Shown: one piece after another, positions 12,500 to 17,013 of the stretch
How the letters are laid out: the number at the start of each line of letters is the position of its first letter
Position numbering within the stretch: the stretch's first letter is position 1
IMG/VR virus record: IMGVR_UViG_3300033233_001194
Span: 1 to 20,037 of that record
Reading direction: 5' to 3' (one strand)
From: a virus
Length of the DNA stretch: 20,037 bases
The notes under the pieces: model-generated
Told to the model about the DNA's origin: nothing
Database searches by the model: none
Seen by the model: only the letters and a program-made list of their open reading frames with translations
Program-made: the position numbers and the translations under genes

Positions 12500-12646
12500 T
12501 TAATTGTTTCTAATTCCTATACAATACTTATTCGGGTCTTTTATGTTGGTGTTTTTGCAAGCTTTAATAAATAATAAAGATGGTAAACTTGCTATAAATG
12601 GTAGCAATAATGCAAATAGCAATACTAATACCATAGTTTTACTCAT
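12500..12646 (-). CDS. Small exported or membrane protein (48 aa)
   Basis: The frame starts MSKTMVLVLLFALLLPFIAS, a strongly hydrophobic segment that could be a signal peptide or membrane anchor. It continues as SLPSLLFIKACKNTNIKDPNKYCIGIRNN with two Cys 13 residues apart. The ATG overlaps the stop of the DUF551 gene (ATGA) and has a strong AAGGAG at correct distance, so it is almost surely translated. No family is known to me. With cleavage near residue 20-21 a small disulphide-bonded periplasmic peptide would result; without cleavage, a single-span protein with its C-terminus in the periplasm. Confidence 0.7.
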   Translation of the reverse strand: MSKTMVLVLLFALLLPFIASLPSLLFIKACKNTNIKDPNKYCIGIRNN

Positions 12647-12894
12647 ACTATCTCCTTTTCTTGTTCTGGTGGATTCGGTAAAGGCATCCAGTGAGTTGGT
12701 TGTGAATAAAATTCATGATCTAATTCCCCACTATACTCAGCCAACTCCCATCGTTTGTAATAACTCCATCTTATTATTACAATTTGACTAGAATAATCGC
12801 TTTCCTCTTCAAGTGGAAAAAAAGCTAAAATTCTAGTTCCGTAAATTTTAGTTTCGTCTTTTGGCGCTGTTTCAATTGGTTGCCATTCGTTCAT
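12643..12894 (-). CDS. DUF551-family protein (83 aa)
   Basis: The DUF551 pattern is clear: MNEWQPIETAPKDETKIYGTRIL at the start (W.PIETAPKDG family motif, with Glu in place of Gly) and THWMPLPNPP at the end (HWMPLPEPP type). The middle includes VIIRWSYY and a Trp-rich stretch. The family is common in phages and prophages; no function is established. I chose the ATG at 12894 because GGGGAG stands at the right distance; an upstream ATG (12909) would add MRGDS inside the end of the previous gene. The end overlaps the next gene by ATGA. Confidence 0.88.
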   Translation of the reverse strand: MNEWQPIETAPKDETKIYGTRILAFFPLEEESDYSSQIVIIRWSYYKRWELAEYSGELDHEFYSQPTHWMPLPNPPEQEKEIV

Positions 12895-12895
12895 A

Positions 12896-13474
12896 CTATC
12901 TCCCCTCATTCATTTCCCAAAGCCCTTCCGCTCTGGTCGCTTCTTTTTCGTCTTCTGTTTGGTTTTCCGCCCAATATTCATCGAGCTTATCTTGAATTGC
13001 TTGATTGATTTTTATTGTTTGTCTTTTCGATAAATAAACTTCGTGATTGCCGATAAAAAGCCAAATATTGTTGTTTGGGTCGATATGCTTAGCATTGGCT
13101 AAATACATTACATTCGCACTATAATTAATTAATATATCAATTGCGGTTTGCAAATTGTTATCTGAGTAAGTCCTCTTTTTAACGACAACCTGAAATAAAT
13201 CATTTTCAAAAACAAATTCTTCAGCATCTTTAGTTAAAAGCTTAATCAATTCCTCTTGTAATCTATCAGTAATTTTTTGATTCTGACTTGGTTTAAATCC
13301 TTTAACTTCGCTTGCATCTTCGCCGTGGATTGTCTTTTCGATGTAACGACCATAAGGTCTATAAAGAATATTAGGATTAGTGTTTAGGTGGTGCAAATCA
13401 TATAAGCTATCCTCAAGAACCCCGTTAGCATATTGCAAAAATTGTTTTCTGTTTTTAAAAATTTCAAATCTCAT
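12896..13474 (-). CDS. Hypothetical phage protein (192 aa)
   Basis: No family recognised. It starts MRFEIFKNRKQFLQYANG and has a soluble mixed alpha/beta sequence. Residues 56-90 (EVKGFKPSQNQKITDRLQEELIKLLTKDAEEF) are helical, the middle has FQVVVKKRTYSDNNLQTAIDILINYS, and then IWLFIGNHEVYLSKRQTIKINQAIQDKLDEYW, where a short beta-hairpin precedes a helix. The end is acidic. No Zn-, NTP- or DNA-binding motif stands out. It is the first protein gene after the RNA cluster, with the shared leader motif right before the ATG, so it is probably read from the promoter near 14180. Confidence 0.7.
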   Translation of the reverse strand: MRFEIFKNRKQFLQYANGVLEDSLYDLHHLNTNPNILYRPYGRYIEKTIHGEDASEVKGFKPSQNQKITDRLQEELIKLLTKDAEEFVFENDLFQVVVKKRTYSDNNLQTAIDILINYSANVMYLANAKHIDPNNNIWLFIGNHEVYLSKRQTIKINQAIQDKLDEYWAENQTEDEKEATRAEGLWEMNEGR

Positions 13475-13486
13475 ATTTTTTTTGTT

Positions 13487-13499
13487 TTAAGTTAATATT
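13487..13499 (-). promoter_or_regulatory. Shared leader motif before 12896-13474
   Basis: Minus strand AATATTAACTTAA followed by AACAAAAAAA and ATATG. Unlike most other copies, no upstream protein gene ends here; it follows the RNA cluster, so the motif is not just a by-product of gene ends. Confidence 0.6.
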
Positions 13500-13511
13500 T
13501 GCCTTTTTACA

Positions 13512-13596
13512 GAAGGCTAACTGTTGAGGTCTTTGCCCCTGTCAATCTCCGTTCTCTGAGTCCACTTAGGATTTAGTTTCGGAAATTTCTGCCTTC
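13512..13596 (-). ncRNA. Structured segment closed by a 6-bp stem, unclear RNA
   Basis: GAAGGC (13512-13517) and GCCTTC (13591-13596) can pair and enclose an 85-base segment with clearly more G+C than the nearby genes. A second hairpin, GCCTT/AAGGC (13501-13505 / 13513-13517), competes for one arm. I see no T-arm (GTTCRA) or anticodon arm, so it is not a recognisable tRNA. The size and the place next to tRNA-like units suggest a strongly decayed tRNA or an RNA spacer. Confidence 0.3.
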
Positions 13597-13612
13597 ATCT
13601 TTACCTAGGCTA

Positions 13613-13690
13613 GGTGGCAATTGCTAGAATCGAACTAGCCAAGGGGAATGACCCTAACGCTCTATAAAAACGCCTCTACCCAAAATTGCC
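13613..13690 (-). tRNA. tRNA-like element with intact acceptor and T arms, abnormal D and anticodon arms
   Basis: A perfect 7-bp acceptor (GGCAATT/AATTGCC) is joined directly to a perfect T arm (GCTAG-TTCGATT-CTAGC), and the total of 75 bases between acceptor ends is normal for a class I tRNA. The 3' end is ACC followed by T, so CCA is not fully encoded. The middle does not fold properly: no D stem is found, and the only possible anticodon stem (TAGGG/CCTTG, with two G-U pairs) gives loop TCATTCC without U33 and no variable loop. It is probably a decayed tRNA gene or a tRNA mimic. The amino acid cannot be stated. Confidence 0.5.
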
Positions 13691-13708
13691 TTATAAATAT
13701 TCAAAAAG

Positions 13709-13834
13709 CTAGTGTTGGCAGGATTCGAACCTGCGAACGAGTTAATCTTAGTAATAACGATGATCCCTGTTACCGACAACTTACAAGGCTATTACTCCTT
13801 TTAGGTGCTTTAAACCCCTCAGCCACAACACTAG
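13709..13834 (-). tRNA. Class II (Ser/Leu-type) tRNA-like element with an enlarged, abnormal centre
   Basis: CTAGTGTTG (13709-13717) pairs with CAACACTAG (13826-13834). Inside on the minus strand are T8-G9, a Ser/Leu-type D arm (GCT-GAGGGGTTTAA-AGC) and a perfect T arm (GCAGG-TTCGAAT-CCTGC). Between D and T arms are about 70 bases where a class II tRNA would have about 40. No normal anticodon arm is found; instead a 9-bp stem (AGTAATAGC/GTTATTACT, one G-U) encloses 29 bases. The 3' end has no CCA. It may be a tRNA disrupted by an insertion, or a tRNA-like RNA with a new function. Confidence 0.5.
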
Positions 13835-13859
13835 CCATTTAAATATTCACGATTTTATT

Positions 13860-13905
13860 GCCCGTAGCTTTCCGAGCATTTTCAGTTCGTCGCAATCTGC
13901 GACGA
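13860..13905 (-). other. Two hairpins between tRNA-like units
   Basis: TCGTCGC (13887-13893) and GCGACGA (13899-13905) form a perfect 7-bp stem with a 5-base loop. GCCCG (13860-13864) and CGAGC (13873-13877) form a 5-bp stem with one wobble on the minus strand. Neither is followed by a U-run on the minus strand, so they are not standard terminators. They could be processing signals between the RNAs. Confidence 0.45.
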
Positions 13906-13919
13906 TGTCACTATTTTCT

Positions 13920-14005
13920 TGGCGGAAGATTAAGGATTCGAACCTTAGCAACATTTCTGTTGTATAGATTAGCAATCTATTGCATTACCGCTCTGCCAAT
14001 CTTCC
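13920..14005 (-). tRNA. tRNA-Ser (anticodon GCU)
   Basis: All arms are present on the minus strand: acceptor GGAAGAT/ATCTTCC, D arm GCA-GAGCGGTAA-TGC, anticodon stem ATAGA/TCTAT with loop TTGCTAA (anticodon GCU), a long variable arm (CAACA-GAAA-TGTTG) as in class II tRNAs, and T arm TAAGG-TTCGAAT-CCTTA. Discriminator G and CCA are encoded (86 bases in total). It reads AGU and AGC serine codons. It is the only fully normal tRNA in the cluster and is probably transcribed from the promoter near 14180. Confidence 0.96.
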
Positions 14006-14020
14006 CCTAATATTTACGAT

Positions 14021-14107
14021 TGTGGTCTCTGGCGAGAAACTTTTCATTCTTCTTCGTTTTTAATTTTTTAAACTCTATTCGTCAATAAAGAACAGTCTAT
14101 GACCACA
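14021..14107 (-). ncRNA. 87-base segment closed by a 7-bp stem, first RNA after the promoter
   Basis: TGTGGTC (14021-14027) pairs with GACCACA (14101-14107), giving a tRNA-sized unit. A small inner hairpin TCTC-GCCA-GAGA lies near its 3' side on the minus strand. There is no T-arm or anticodon arm, and the centre is A/T-rich. It could be a decayed tRNA or a 5' leader structure of the cluster transcript. The region 14108-14168 after it shows no gene. Confidence 0.3.
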
Positions 14108-14168
14108 CCAAAGATATTTTATTCACGATTTATATTTTTAAAAGTCTTTTTATCAACCTTCGCAACAT

Positions 14169-14197
14169 ATGCTATACTAAGCTTTTTAATGTGTCAA
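14169..14197 (-). promoter_or_regulatory. Sigma70-like promoter driving the RNA cluster and downstream leftward genes
   Basis: On the minus strand a perfect TTGACA (14192-14197) is followed after 17 bases by TAGCAT (14169-14174); an overlapping TATAGC with a 15-base spacer is the other -10 choice. Transcription would start near 14162 and run leftward into the RNA cluster and on to the 192-aa gene and recT operon. It lies in a 120-base gap without genes, directly behind the end of 14227-14430. Confidence 0.65.
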
Positions 14198-14198
14198 G

Positions 14199-14218
14199 AA
14201 TTATTTTTAAAAATAATT
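14199..14218. repeat. Perfect 20-bp palindrome next to the -35 box
   Basis: AATTATTTTTAAAAATAATT is fully self-complementary over 20 bases and ends one base before the TTGACA box. It may be an operator for a dimeric regulator, an A/T-rich UP-like element, or, as RNA, a weak hairpin at the end of the upstream transcript. Without a G/C core it is a poor intrinsic terminator. Confidence 0.6.
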
Positions 14219-14226
14219 AAAATATT

Positions 14227-14430
14227 TTATTTGCGCAAGTTATCCCAAGTCGCGCAAGAGAATAAAAAAGTTAAAGAGACAATTAAAGATAAAATTAAAG
14301 ATAAAATGTAATTTATTCTATAATCTTGTTGCCAATTAATAAAATTAATATCTCCAATGACAAAAGAAAATATTAAATAAAGAATAACCGCAATATGTGC
14401 TATGATTCCTGCAATAGTAAAGTATTTCAT
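14227..14430 (-). CDS. Small two-helix membrane protein (67 aa)
   Basis: Two hydrophobic segments are seen: about 4-25 (FTIAGIIAHIAVILYLIFSFVI) and 41-60 (YILSLILSLIVSLTFLFSC), separated by a polar loop with Trp-Gln-Gln-Asp. The C-terminus is ATWDNLRK. The gene follows a 22-residue membrane peptide gene and is the last one before the promoter region at 14169-14218. No family recognised, and the ATG lacks a clear ribosome site. An opposite-strand frame here (14099-14311) is less likely, given that all surrounding genes run leftward. Confidence 0.6.
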   Translation of the reverse strand: MKYFTIAGIIAHIAVILYLIFSFVIGDINFINWQQDYRINYILSLILSLIVSLTFLFSCATWDNLRK

Positions 14431-14447
14431 GATTTTAAATATTTATT

Positions 14448-14516
14448 TTATTGAAAAGTAGTAATTAAAACTCCTACTATCGCAAATCCTATTAATAATA
14501 TTCCCGCTACTTCCAT
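14448..14516 (-). CDS. Very small membrane peptide (22 aa)
   Basis: A 22-residue frame, MEVAGILLIGFAIVGVLITTFQ, that is almost wholly hydrophobic and would form one membrane helix. The reason to call it is the strong AAGGAGT site at correct distance (14521-14527), which overlaps the stop of the receiver-domain gene. That site has no other gene to serve. Such small peptides often modulate a membrane protein partner; the nearest is the two-helix protein encoded 17 bases further on. Confidence 0.55.
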   Translation of the reverse strand: MEVAGILLIGFAIVGVLITTFQ

Positions 14517-14525
14517 AATTACTCC

Positions 14526-14855
14526 TTATTTTAAATTAATAACATTCACTAATTGTAATTGTGATTTCGGAATTACTTCGTCGATCCACTTATTTTGAAT
14601 AATACAACTATCCGCACTTGAAAGAATAATCTTTGCTTGCGAATAGTTTTTTAATGTCTCGGCTTTATCAACCCCTTTTATATCTTCTTTCTCAAGAAAA
14701 TTATCCAAGATTATAAAACTAAAAATATTATTTTTAAGCTCAATAATTGCATCAACAAAATTATCAACACAAGTTAAATTAACATCTAATATTTTAGCTT
14801 GATGTTTTAACAACATTGTTAATATTTCCGAGTCTTCGATTAATAGAATTTTCAC
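14526..14855 (-). CDS. Stand-alone CheY-like receiver (REC) domain protein (109 aa)
   Basis: The protein has the size and motif order of a single response-regulator receiver domain: MKILLIEDSEILTMLL at the start with Glu7-Asp8 (metal-binding acidic pair), FSFIILDNFL with Asp51 at the phospho-acceptor site, KIILSSAD with Ser79/Ser80 at the switch Thr/Ser site, and VIPKS with Lys97 at the invariant Lys. No output domain follows. It may take phosphate from a host histidine kinase or act as a decoy or adaptor. The start overlaps the stop of the 73-aa gene (ATGA), which itself overlaps dnaB, so the three are translated as a unit. The residues are seen; activity is inferred. Confidence 0.75.
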   Translation of the reverse strand: MKILLIEDSEILTMLLKHQAKILDVNLTCVDNFVDAIIELKNNIFSFIILDNFLEKEDIKGVDKAETLKNYSQAKIILSSADSCIIQNKWIDEVIPKSQLQLVNVINLK

Positions 14856-15073
14856 AATTGTTTGTTATGATTGTTAATAAACTCATCTAAGTTAAAAGAT
14901 GAATTTTGTTTTATAATTTCGTCGATTTTTTTAAAATTACCCGCTGATATTAAGGCTTCGTATTGCTCAACACTGTCGAAGTATTTTAAAAAAATATCTC
15001 TGTTCTGATGATAAAGTTTTGCTTTACTTGCATTTGCGATAGTTTTTGCAAGTATTGTTTTAATGTGAATCAT
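14852..15073 (-). CDS. Hypothetical protein between DnaB and the REC protein (73 aa)
   Basis: I chose the ATG at 15073 because GGGAGG stands right before it, inside the end of dnaB; the frame is open further upstream but only over the dnaB gene. The protein is mainly helical: a basic N-terminal half (IHIKTILAKTIANASKAKLYHQNRDIF) and an acidic or neutral second half (SVEQYEALISAGNFKKIDEIIKQ, then NLDEFINNH). No family recognised. It overlaps dnaB by 14 bases at its start and the receiver gene by four at its end. It could be a partner of either, for example a phosphotransfer or helicase-loading helper, but no phosphotransfer His motif can be assigned. Confidence 0.7.
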   Translation of the reverse strand: MIHIKTILAKTIANASKAKLYHQNRDIFLKYFDSVEQYEALISAGNFKKIDEIIKQNSSFNLDEFINNHNKQL

Positions 15074-16367
15074 TTGCCTCCCAGAATTTGCTTTGTTTGC
15101 CGTTGAAGTTAAATAAAATGTCCCCGCATTCGCCTTCGCGATTCTTAGAAACAATTATATCTGCTTTGCCCTTTAAATTATTGTAGCACTTAAGCCATTC
15201 GTCATAATGCTTTGAGTGTTCGGGAACTTTTTCACGCTCTAAGAAATATTCCTCTCTATGTGTAAACATTACAATATCCGCATTTTGCTCTATAGCTCCC
15301 GAGTCTCTTAAGTCGCTTAAAATTGGTCTTTTATTTTCTCTCGAATCTCCAGCTCTTGATAATTGCGACAAGGCAACAACAACAATATTAAAGTCTTTTG
15401 CTATTTTCTTTAAACCCTCAGCAATTCTTGATATTTGTTGTTCTCTTGAGAATTCTTTACCCGAGCTTGCGATTAATTGTAAATAATCGATACAAATCAT
15501 TTTAATATCATTTTTAAGCATTGCCCGTTTAATCTTGCTTCTAATTGTTAAAAGATTTATGCCATTTTCTTGATCGAGTATTAAATTATAATCTTTCCAA
15601 GTGTGTCTATTGTTTTCTATTGATAGCTTGTCGGCTTCGGTTGTTGCTCCGATTTTTAATCTATAAGCACTTGCCCCCGTTGTTTCATTTAGAAATTTTC
15701 TTGCTAGGCTTTTGTCCGATACTTCCATTGAAAAGAATAAAACTCCTTGAGTTAGAGAAACATTTTTAGCAAAGTTTAAACAAAATGTAGTCTTTCCGCT
15801 CGATGGTCTGCCACCGATAATAACTAGATTACCAAGCTCGAAGCCTCCAGTTAGAATATCTAATTTATCAAAGCCCGTAAAGATTAATTCTTTTTGATGA
15901 TTAGATAAAACATCATCAATAACTTTGTCAATCTTTTTAGGCTGGTTAGACATGTTTATTGATATGTCTGCTATGTCTCCCTCTAATTTGTTTTTAATAG
16001 CATCAAAATCGCTTGTTTTATCGCTTATAATTAAATTTAATATCTTTTTTAGCTCTCTTATTTGCCATAACCTAATTATTTCATTTGAATAAGATTCCAT
16101 ATCAACTAATCCACTAGTAGCATTGGATAGGTTTTTAATAATCTTAACATCAATTTCATTATTTTTAACAAATGTTGAAATAATCCTAAAGTCAACAACC
16201 TCACCGTTTCCGATTCTTTTAATAACTTCTTCAAAAATCTTTTGATAATCAGCAAAGTAAAAATGCTTTGCTTCGAGGTTTGGTGATTTTAACAAATACA
16301 TGTTATTTGAAAGAATAGTTCCCAGTAGGGCTTCTTCTATCTCTTGATTGAAATTTTCTTGTTCCAT
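15060..16367 (-). CDS. dnaB: Replicative DNA helicase, DnaB family (435 aa)
   Basis: Full two-domain layout. The N-terminal domain (about 1-130) begins EIEEALLGTILSNNMYL; the C-terminal RecA-like domain has Walker A GGRPSSGKTT (185-194), FFSMEVS (211-217), Walker B ICIDYLQLI (291-299), VVALSQLSR (330-338), and RPILSDLRDSGAIEQNADIVMF (347-368). These are the DnaB motifs H1-H4 in order. The enzyme unwinds the phage replication fork as a ring hexamer. The length fits phage DnaB proteins. Upstream lies the DUF6291-type protein, a probable origin or loader protein; downstream the 73-aa and REC genes overlap it. The start lacks a clear Shine-Dalgarno site. Confidence 0.95.
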   Translation of the reverse strand: MEQENFNQEIEEALLGTILSNNMYLLKSPNLEAKHFYFADYQKIFEEVIKRIGNGEVVDFRIISTFVKNNEIDVKIIKNLSNATSGLVDMESYSNEIIRLWQIRELKKILNLIISDKTSDFDAIKNKLEGDIADISINMSNQPKKIDKVIDDVLSNHQKELIFTGFDKLDILTGGFELGNLVIIGGRPSSGKTTFCLNFAKNVSLTQGVLFFSMEVSDKSLARKFLNETTGASAYRLKIGATTEADKLSIENNRHTWKDYNLILDQENGINLLTIRSKIKRAMLKNDIKMICIDYLQLIASSGKEFSREQQISRIAEGLKKIAKDFNIVVVALSQLSRAGDSRENKRPILSDLRDSGAIEQNADIVMFTHREEYFLEREKVPEHSKHYDEWLKCYNNLKGKADIIVSKNREGECGDILFNFNGKQSKFWEANDSH

Positions 16368-16368
16368 G

Positions 16369-17013
16369 TTATTTGTTTAAAAGATGTTGATATTCACTTA
16401 AAAATTTAGGTTTATCATTGTTTTTGTAGTTATTATTGTAATTATTTATTTTTGGTTCAAATACTCCTTGATAGGAATTTTGGATTGAATTTTCTAAAGC
16501 TTCATTGGCAAAGCCTTTTTGTTTTGTTTCAAATTTTATTAGGTTTTTTATTAACAACTCTCTTGCTTTTTCTGTTAATTGTTTTTTAATTTTTATACGC
16601 ATTTCAACAAAAGCATTAAATAAATCTTTATTTATAAAGATTGGTAAATCACTATCATTCTTACTATCACTATCACTATCATTCTTACTATCACTATCGG
16701 TATTTTTGGTATCTTTTGGTATACCAGTTTTACGAGTGGTATTTTTGGTATTAGGTTTATTCCACCTCTTTGCAATATTGATTTTATTCCTTTCAACAAC
16801 ATTTTGATACTTTTCTTCATCTCTTTTAAATTGATTTAAAAACGGCTCAAAAATGCAATCAATCATTTTTTCAGTAGGCAAAATGTTTTGAGTTTGGAAG
16901 TTATAAATTGCTTTAAAAAGTTTTCCAGCTTCTTCATCTGATAGTTTATTTAAGATTGATAAACTATCTTTGTGTAGTATAAAAGATTTATTTTGTAATA
17001 TTTGAGTTGTCAT
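16369..17013 (-). CDS. DUF6291-type phage replication protein (214 aa)
   Basis: The N-terminal part (SFILHKDSLSILNKLSDEEAGKLFKAIYNFQ, 10-40, then FEPFLNQFKRDEEKY) matches DUF6291 proteins of phages. A low-complexity linker with two exact DSDSKNDS units (about 102-122) follows. The C-terminal part (FNAFVEMRIKIKKQLTEKARELLIKNLIKF ... ALENSIQNSYQGVFEPK) is like the end of phage replisome organiser proteins, where an SI.NGW.GLF.P motif is usual. It probably binds the origin and loads DnaB, whose gene follows one base behind its stop. The start overlaps the preceding gene by 26 bases and has an AAGGTAGGTTCAA leader. Confidence 0.75.
   Translation of the reverse strand: MTTQILQNKSFILHKDSLSILNKLSDEEAGKLFKAIYNFQTQNILPTEKMIDCIFEPFLNQFKRDEEKYQNVVERNKINIAKRWNKPNTKNTTRKTGIPKDTKNTDSDSKNDSDSDSKNDSDLPIFINKDLFNAFVEMRIKIKKQLTEKARELLIKNLIKFETKQKGFANEALENSIQNSYQGVFEPKINNYNNNYKNNDKPKFLSEYQHLLNK
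16651..16698. repeat. Perfect 24-bp tandem duplication in the DUF6291-type gene
   Basis: The 24 bases at 16651-16674 are repeated exactly at 16675-16698 and code DSDSKNDS twice. The unit itself is built from shorter ACTATC/ACTATCATT blocks, so its length may vary among relatives by slippage. It falls in the linker between the two protein domains, where length changes in steps of eight residues are tolerable. Confidence 0.9.

Follow-up and report, generated by a model that had tools for sequence, protein, structure and literature searches.

The window, the whole 20,037-nt stretch of DNA analysed here (a 20-kb virus record), encodes a stand-alone receiver domain that keeps its active site intact but, according to the predicted models, has its entire output half reduced. 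We propose, with a probability of roughly 0.4, that this catalytically complete, helix-stripped receiver acts as a passive phosphoryl acceptor, which would drain or divert the phosphate of a host kinase or phosphotransferase.

Receiver identity and catalytic residues

The receiver gene occupies positions 14526–14855 on the minus strand and encodes 109 residues from a GTG start. The first-pass annotation had read this ORF as a phage-encoded receiver domain with E7-D8, D51, S79-S80 and K97 as its key residues and with no output domain in the 109-residue protein, and all of these points were confirmed. Only the assignment of both serines needs to be narrowed: based on a PmrA-type alignment and on invariance in the family, S79 is the catalytic residue of the pentad (E7, D8, D51, S79 and K97) and S80 is not. 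The codon of D51, the putative phospho-acceptor, lies at 14703–14705 (minus strand), as given by the reading frame and by the invariance of the residue. E7, D8, D51 and S79 are present in all 19 family sequences, at identities down to 31%, and K97 is kept in 18 of them, the lysine of L028 sitting one position earlier. A pseudo-receiver is marked by the loss of one or more of these five residues (PMC12632262); with all five found in 18 of the 19 sequences, this assignment is ruled out. The dN/dS values of the receiver, 0.09–0.20, indicate that it is under purifying selection.

A search with the Pfam Response_reg profile (PF00072, gathering cut-off 30.2 bits) gave a divided result. The window protein scores 24.6 bits, below the cut-off, whereas its relatives L016, L023, L024, L027 and L031 score 38.3, 46.7, 46.1, 46.0 and 44.6 bits, respectively; L012 (21.7 bits) also lies below the cut-off, and L028 has no match. 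When the family profile was compared by sequence with solved structures, the best match was the response regulator 3a0r_B (E 2e-7). Comparison of the AlphaFold model of the window receiver (pLDDT 93.6, pTM 0.88) with the PDB gave 273 matches at E≤0.001, and the best 50 of these are receivers or receiver-containing proteins. Among the best matches listed are PmrA (E 1e-6) and the phosphorylated regulator 3rqi, with TM about 0.8. The predicted models are still matched best by receivers despite their missing helices, described below. Loss of the receiver fold or of the catalytic residues in homologues, which had been named as evidence against the call, was not found. The fold model, the Response_reg scores of the relatives and the conserved pentad together support a phage-encoded, stand-alone receiver.

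The reduced output half

In the window model, β1–β5 and α1–α3 are present, a loop replaces α4, and α5 is a single turn of five residues. A second subfamily comprises L031 and its relatives, which are 42–46% identical to the window receiver; the AlphaFold model of L031 (pLDDT 92.7) has neither α4 nor α5, and most members of this subfamily end 8 residues after the lysine. A complete (βα)5 fold is found in neither subfamily's predicted model. A programmed frameshift that would restore α5 in the short subfamily is unsupported, because nucleotide conservation ends at the stop codon. Canonical receivers such as CheY and PhoB have 22 residues between the conserved Ser/Thr and the Lys; in the window family this spacing is 18 residues. 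Position K-3 is Val in all 19 sequences and never aromatic, so Y-T coupling cannot work. At K+1 there is Ser or Lys in 18 sequences and Asn in L028; none of the 19 has Pro, so that the Lys-cis-Pro hallmark is lost. With the α4-β5-α5 output half missing or reduced, K-3 always Val and the Lys-Pro pair gone, the earlier description of the protein as CheY-like does not hold. The linker in place of α4 keeps the conserved residues A81, D82, N88, I91 and D92. Between the subfamilies, β3 and β4 are the most conserved elements, and α1 is the best-kept helix (0.44, versus 0.24 for α2, 0.31 for α3 and 0.03 for the lost α5).

We have compared this anatomy to that of known receivers. The terminal receivers of CheY/OmpR type (PmrA, 3a0r_B, VicR) provide the best sequence and fold matches, the sequence match covering residues 1–83, but the window family differs from them in its missing or reduced α4-β5-α5 half and in having no Y-T coupling. 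CckA-Rec, Sma0114 and SdrG have been reported to have no α4, and Sma0114 no aromatic residue at β5; intermediary receivers tolerate the loss of α4, do not conserve the K-3 aromatic residue and pass phosphate passively, with no allosteric change (PMC9981736). Loss of α4 and an unconserved K-3 aromatic, two of the features by which that work recognizes intermediary (FATGUY) receivers, are both found in the window family, which, like CckA-Rec, Sma0114, SdrG, MrrA and Spo0F, has a complete active site and does not employ an allosteric output face. In contrast to the intermediary receivers, the window family has no FATGUY motif at β4 (0 of 19 sequences) and no Lys-Pro pair, its α5 is also reduced or lost, and it is phage-encoded, with no kinase found in the related records.

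Stand-alone phage receivers are already known (Alteromonas phage V22 ORF30 and further BFVD entries), and receivers without α4 are known in bacteria. V22 ORF30 is likewise phage-encoded, with a receiver active site and no fused output domain, but it is full-length, matching almost all of the Pfam model with 79 bits, with a T-K spacing of 22, Tyr at K-3 and Pro at K+1; it was not retrieved by sequence searches with the window family. Our searches of the open-licence PMC literature turned up no phage receiver family described as having neither α4 nor α5 and yet being catalytically complete.

Gene neighbourhood and distribution

Across the loci, the genes follow one another as initiator, dnaB, orf73, variable cargo, receiver, further variable cargo with tRNA genes, p192 and recombination genes, and the receiver is always on the same strand within the replication/recombination region. 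In the window, these genes lie on the minus strand and include a replication initiator/O-like protein (DUF6291; phrog_678; 16369–17013), a DnaB-like replicative helicase (15060–16367) and, kept directly after dnaB, orf73 (14852–15073), which encodes 73 residues with no assigned function. Downstream of the receiver are a small membrane-like protein belonging to the variable cargo (14227–14430), tRNA-Ser(GCT) (13920–14005) and p192 (12896–13474), a conserved 192-residue protein that closes the receiver's variable cassette. As annotated before, orf73, which runs from an ATG at 15073 to a stop at 14852, overlaps dnaB; the two genes share 14 nt at the end of dnaB. The overlap of orf73 with the receiver is GTGA and not the ATGA given earlier, since the receiver starts at 14855 with GTG. 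GTG or TTG, and not ATG, is also the start codon in most close relatives examined and may result in low translation of the receiver. A scan for promoters and terminators gave nothing above chance level.

The first-pass annotation had described the receiver as coupled to the helicase operon and had proposed to look for a conserved position next to dnaB. This coupling proved weak. Of 21 loci, only four have the receiver abutting orf73 through the GTGA overlap (the window and three others, one of which, L002, is nearly identical to the window), and in the other loci dnaB and the receiver are 0.4–2.4 kb apart, with variable cargo filling the gap. The receiver also persists through exchanges of dnaB. 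That of L013 is 93% identical, but its DnaB is only 37% identical, and divergent DnaB proteins (37–42% identical) accompany a retained receiver in L013, L042, L043 and L045. In L044, an IstB/DnaA-type (loader-like) ATPase is at the dnaB site with no orf73 in the slot, and the receiver is kept. Replacement of dnaB while the receiver stays implies that the receiver belongs to the cassette and not to the helicase; on the gene order and the helicase swaps, we reject the idea that its function turns on coupling to the helicase.

It is noted that the swapped helicase genes (L013:5784–7166, L042:7663–9042, L043:358–1224 and L045:785–2167) and the ATPase gene (L044:7401–8213) lie among otherwise conserved neighbours. 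The orf73 gene is found in the receiver-less L030 and after the divergent dnaB of L013 as well, and its product is possibly helicase-associated. Between dnaB-orf73 and p192/recT extends a hypervariable cassette of small genes (12500–14855 in the window, and in relatives); methyltransferases, dUTPase, HicB-like, GNAT and pentapeptide-repeat proteins occur in or near it in relatives. Among the near neighbours of the receiver, only orf73 and p192 are steadily conserved. A second tRNA-like gene of the window (13710–13832, minus strand; Rfam 40.5 bits) was missed by ARAGORN; it is about 50 nt longer than the model, possibly with an insert or an extended variable arm. The downstream slot holds differing tRNA genes (Met, Arg, Ser, Asn, Leu) in L012, L014, L017, L024, L028, L042 and L043.

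A search for HATPase_c, the ATPase domain of histidine kinases, found none in 14 related phage records, several of which are fragments, and a phage-encoded cognate kinase was set aside at that scope. The presence of the receiver was counted starting from a DnaB search, so that the set was not selected on the receiver. Among 25 loci with a helicase at least 78% identical, 21 carry the receiver, which in one of them is truncated where the contig ends; of the remaining four, three end before the receiver slot and L026 has only 2.2 kb after the helicase. The receiver is present, then, in all 21 decidable close relatives. It is absent in L030 and L032, whose helicases are 60% and 49% identical, respectively. 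Scans with different queries confine the family to about two dozen IMG/VR contigs of one phage group. No relative was found among 50,697 cultured phages, which gave only five weak cyanophage matches (E 0.3–0.6). A pattern scan of bacterial genome contigs found no relative of the receiver; a second scan with a different pattern, also finding none, is treated as unreliable (592 matching stretches both times). Similarity of terminase, RecT, tail and DnaB proteins was rejected as a guide to the host, the signal being mosaic and all identities <60%.

Possible roles of the receiver

Three uses had been suggested for the protein: tapping a host phosphorelay to sense cell state, sequestering phosphate from a host kinase, and binding a host regulator. 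Of these, the anatomy agrees best with diversion of phosphate and least with conventional output to a host regulator. The intact pentad, the absence of output helices and the absence of Y-T coupling liken the protein to intermediary phosphorelay receivers, and since no phage kinase was found, its simplest use would be as a phosphate acceptor for a host kinase or phosphotransferase. In such a course, a host histidine kinase or histidine phosphotransferase would dock on the α1/active-site face and hand its phosphate to Asp51, from which it would be lost or passed on, resulting in drain or diversion of the host phosphorelay. The position among replication genes suggests that the receiver is probably made early in infection. 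The kept pentad, the modelled fold without output helices, α1 as the best-kept helix, the purifying selection and the absence of a kinase in the related records all suggest an acceptor. Several features count against it. A Lys-Pro cis bond positions the Lys in the receiver active site (PMC9981736), and its absence could make phosphorylation of Asp51 poor; the loss of α5 may remove some of the surface on which kinases usually dock. There is no FATGUY motif, α1 is only moderately conserved between the subfamilies, and the low expression suggested by the GTG/TTG starts would be odd for a stoichiometric sink. A more specific form of the proposal, which we regard as rather doubtful, holds that a receiver reduced to its phosphotransfer core, (βα)3-β4-β5, is a dedicated interceptor of the host phosphorelay and represents a class of viral phosphate decoys, the missing output half suggesting that it is uncoupled from downstream signalling.

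The loss of two helices in two subfamilies can also be viewed as baring a face that a partner could cover. The receiver would then be a binding module that attaches to a specific host or phage protein through the bare β5 edge and sheet face, in its phosphorylated or unphosphorylated form, and alters the activity of that partner, with phosphate or Mg2+ only tuning the contact, as for CpdR on ClpX. Single-domain regulators such as CpdR do act by direct binding (PMC9981736), and the residues retained in the α4-replacing linker would suit such a role. However, α5, which seems to be used in the CpdR-ClpX contact, is reduced or missing here, and the partner is hypothetical, orf73 and p192 being the only steady near neighbours; we consider this reading possible but on the unlikely side. 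In a separate reading, the receiver would be a dedicated regulator of the phage replisome, switching DnaB or the 73-residue protein in response to cell energy or acetyl phosphate. The constant strand and region and the chained overlaps of receiver, orf73 and dnaB in the window and three other loci are in line with this, but the rarity of that overlap, the exchange of DnaB beside a nearly unchanged receiver in L013, the retention of the receiver in L044 without dnaB and orf73, and the presence of orf73 and dnaB without a receiver in L030 make it improbable. Simple decay of a receiver acquired from a host, now functionless, would account for the lost α4, α5 and Lys-Pro motif; it is contradicted by the dN/dS values, by catalytic residues invariant in two divergent subfamilies and by the presence of the gene in every decidable close relative, and we give it hardly any weight.

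Phages also encode a known branch of the receiver fold, cREC (PF20274), a mostly phage family that is not found with a kinase and has cyclic phosphates as its predicted substrates (PMC7824862, PMC9503650). The window family resembles the cREC proteins of phages V5 and 65 in being a small, phage-encoded, receiver-related domain with conserved acidic residues and no kinase partner. An enzyme of cREC type, opening the cyclic phosphates of RNA ends or ADP-ribose derivatives against host RNA-cleaving or cyclic-nucleotide defences, would be consistent with the tRNA genes in the same cassette and with the weak matches to cREC_REC given by 8 of 10 members. The cREC score is 14.4 bits for the window protein and 26.9 for L016, the best relative, just under the cut-off of 27.0. 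In matched searches, however, the control genes of V5 and 65 reach 52 and 71 bits against the cREC model and have no match to Response_reg, whereas the window family favours Response_reg (21–46 bits, L028 none) over cREC (0–27 bits). The cREC motifs DDxRxP and H[ST]xNP, as read from the two reference sequences of V5 and 65, occur in none of the 19 family sequences, and structural matches to cREC are poorer, with TM 0.67 or less. The NAD/RNA-repair neighbourhood of cREC is missing as well: the domains reported for 90 neighbouring proteins include no RNA ligase, Nudix, 2H, sirtuin or macro domain, while the V5 cREC gene adjoins a Sir2-like ORF, as read from its ORFs and in agreement with PMC9503650. 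Membership in cREC is ruled out by motifs, scores and gene context, and a cREC-like activity is very unlikely.

There is a precedent for a phage protein targeting host histidine kinases, since PIT4 binds them (PMC10714779). If the phosphate-acceptor reading is true, phages would disturb two-component signalling with a minimal phosphate acceptor and not with an inhibitor. The family would further reveal how small a part of a receiver suffices for phosphotransfer, the sufficiency of the small core being indicated by an evolution that dropped the two output helices and kept the active site. Both the interference and the minimal-receiver ideas are directly testable with one small protein.
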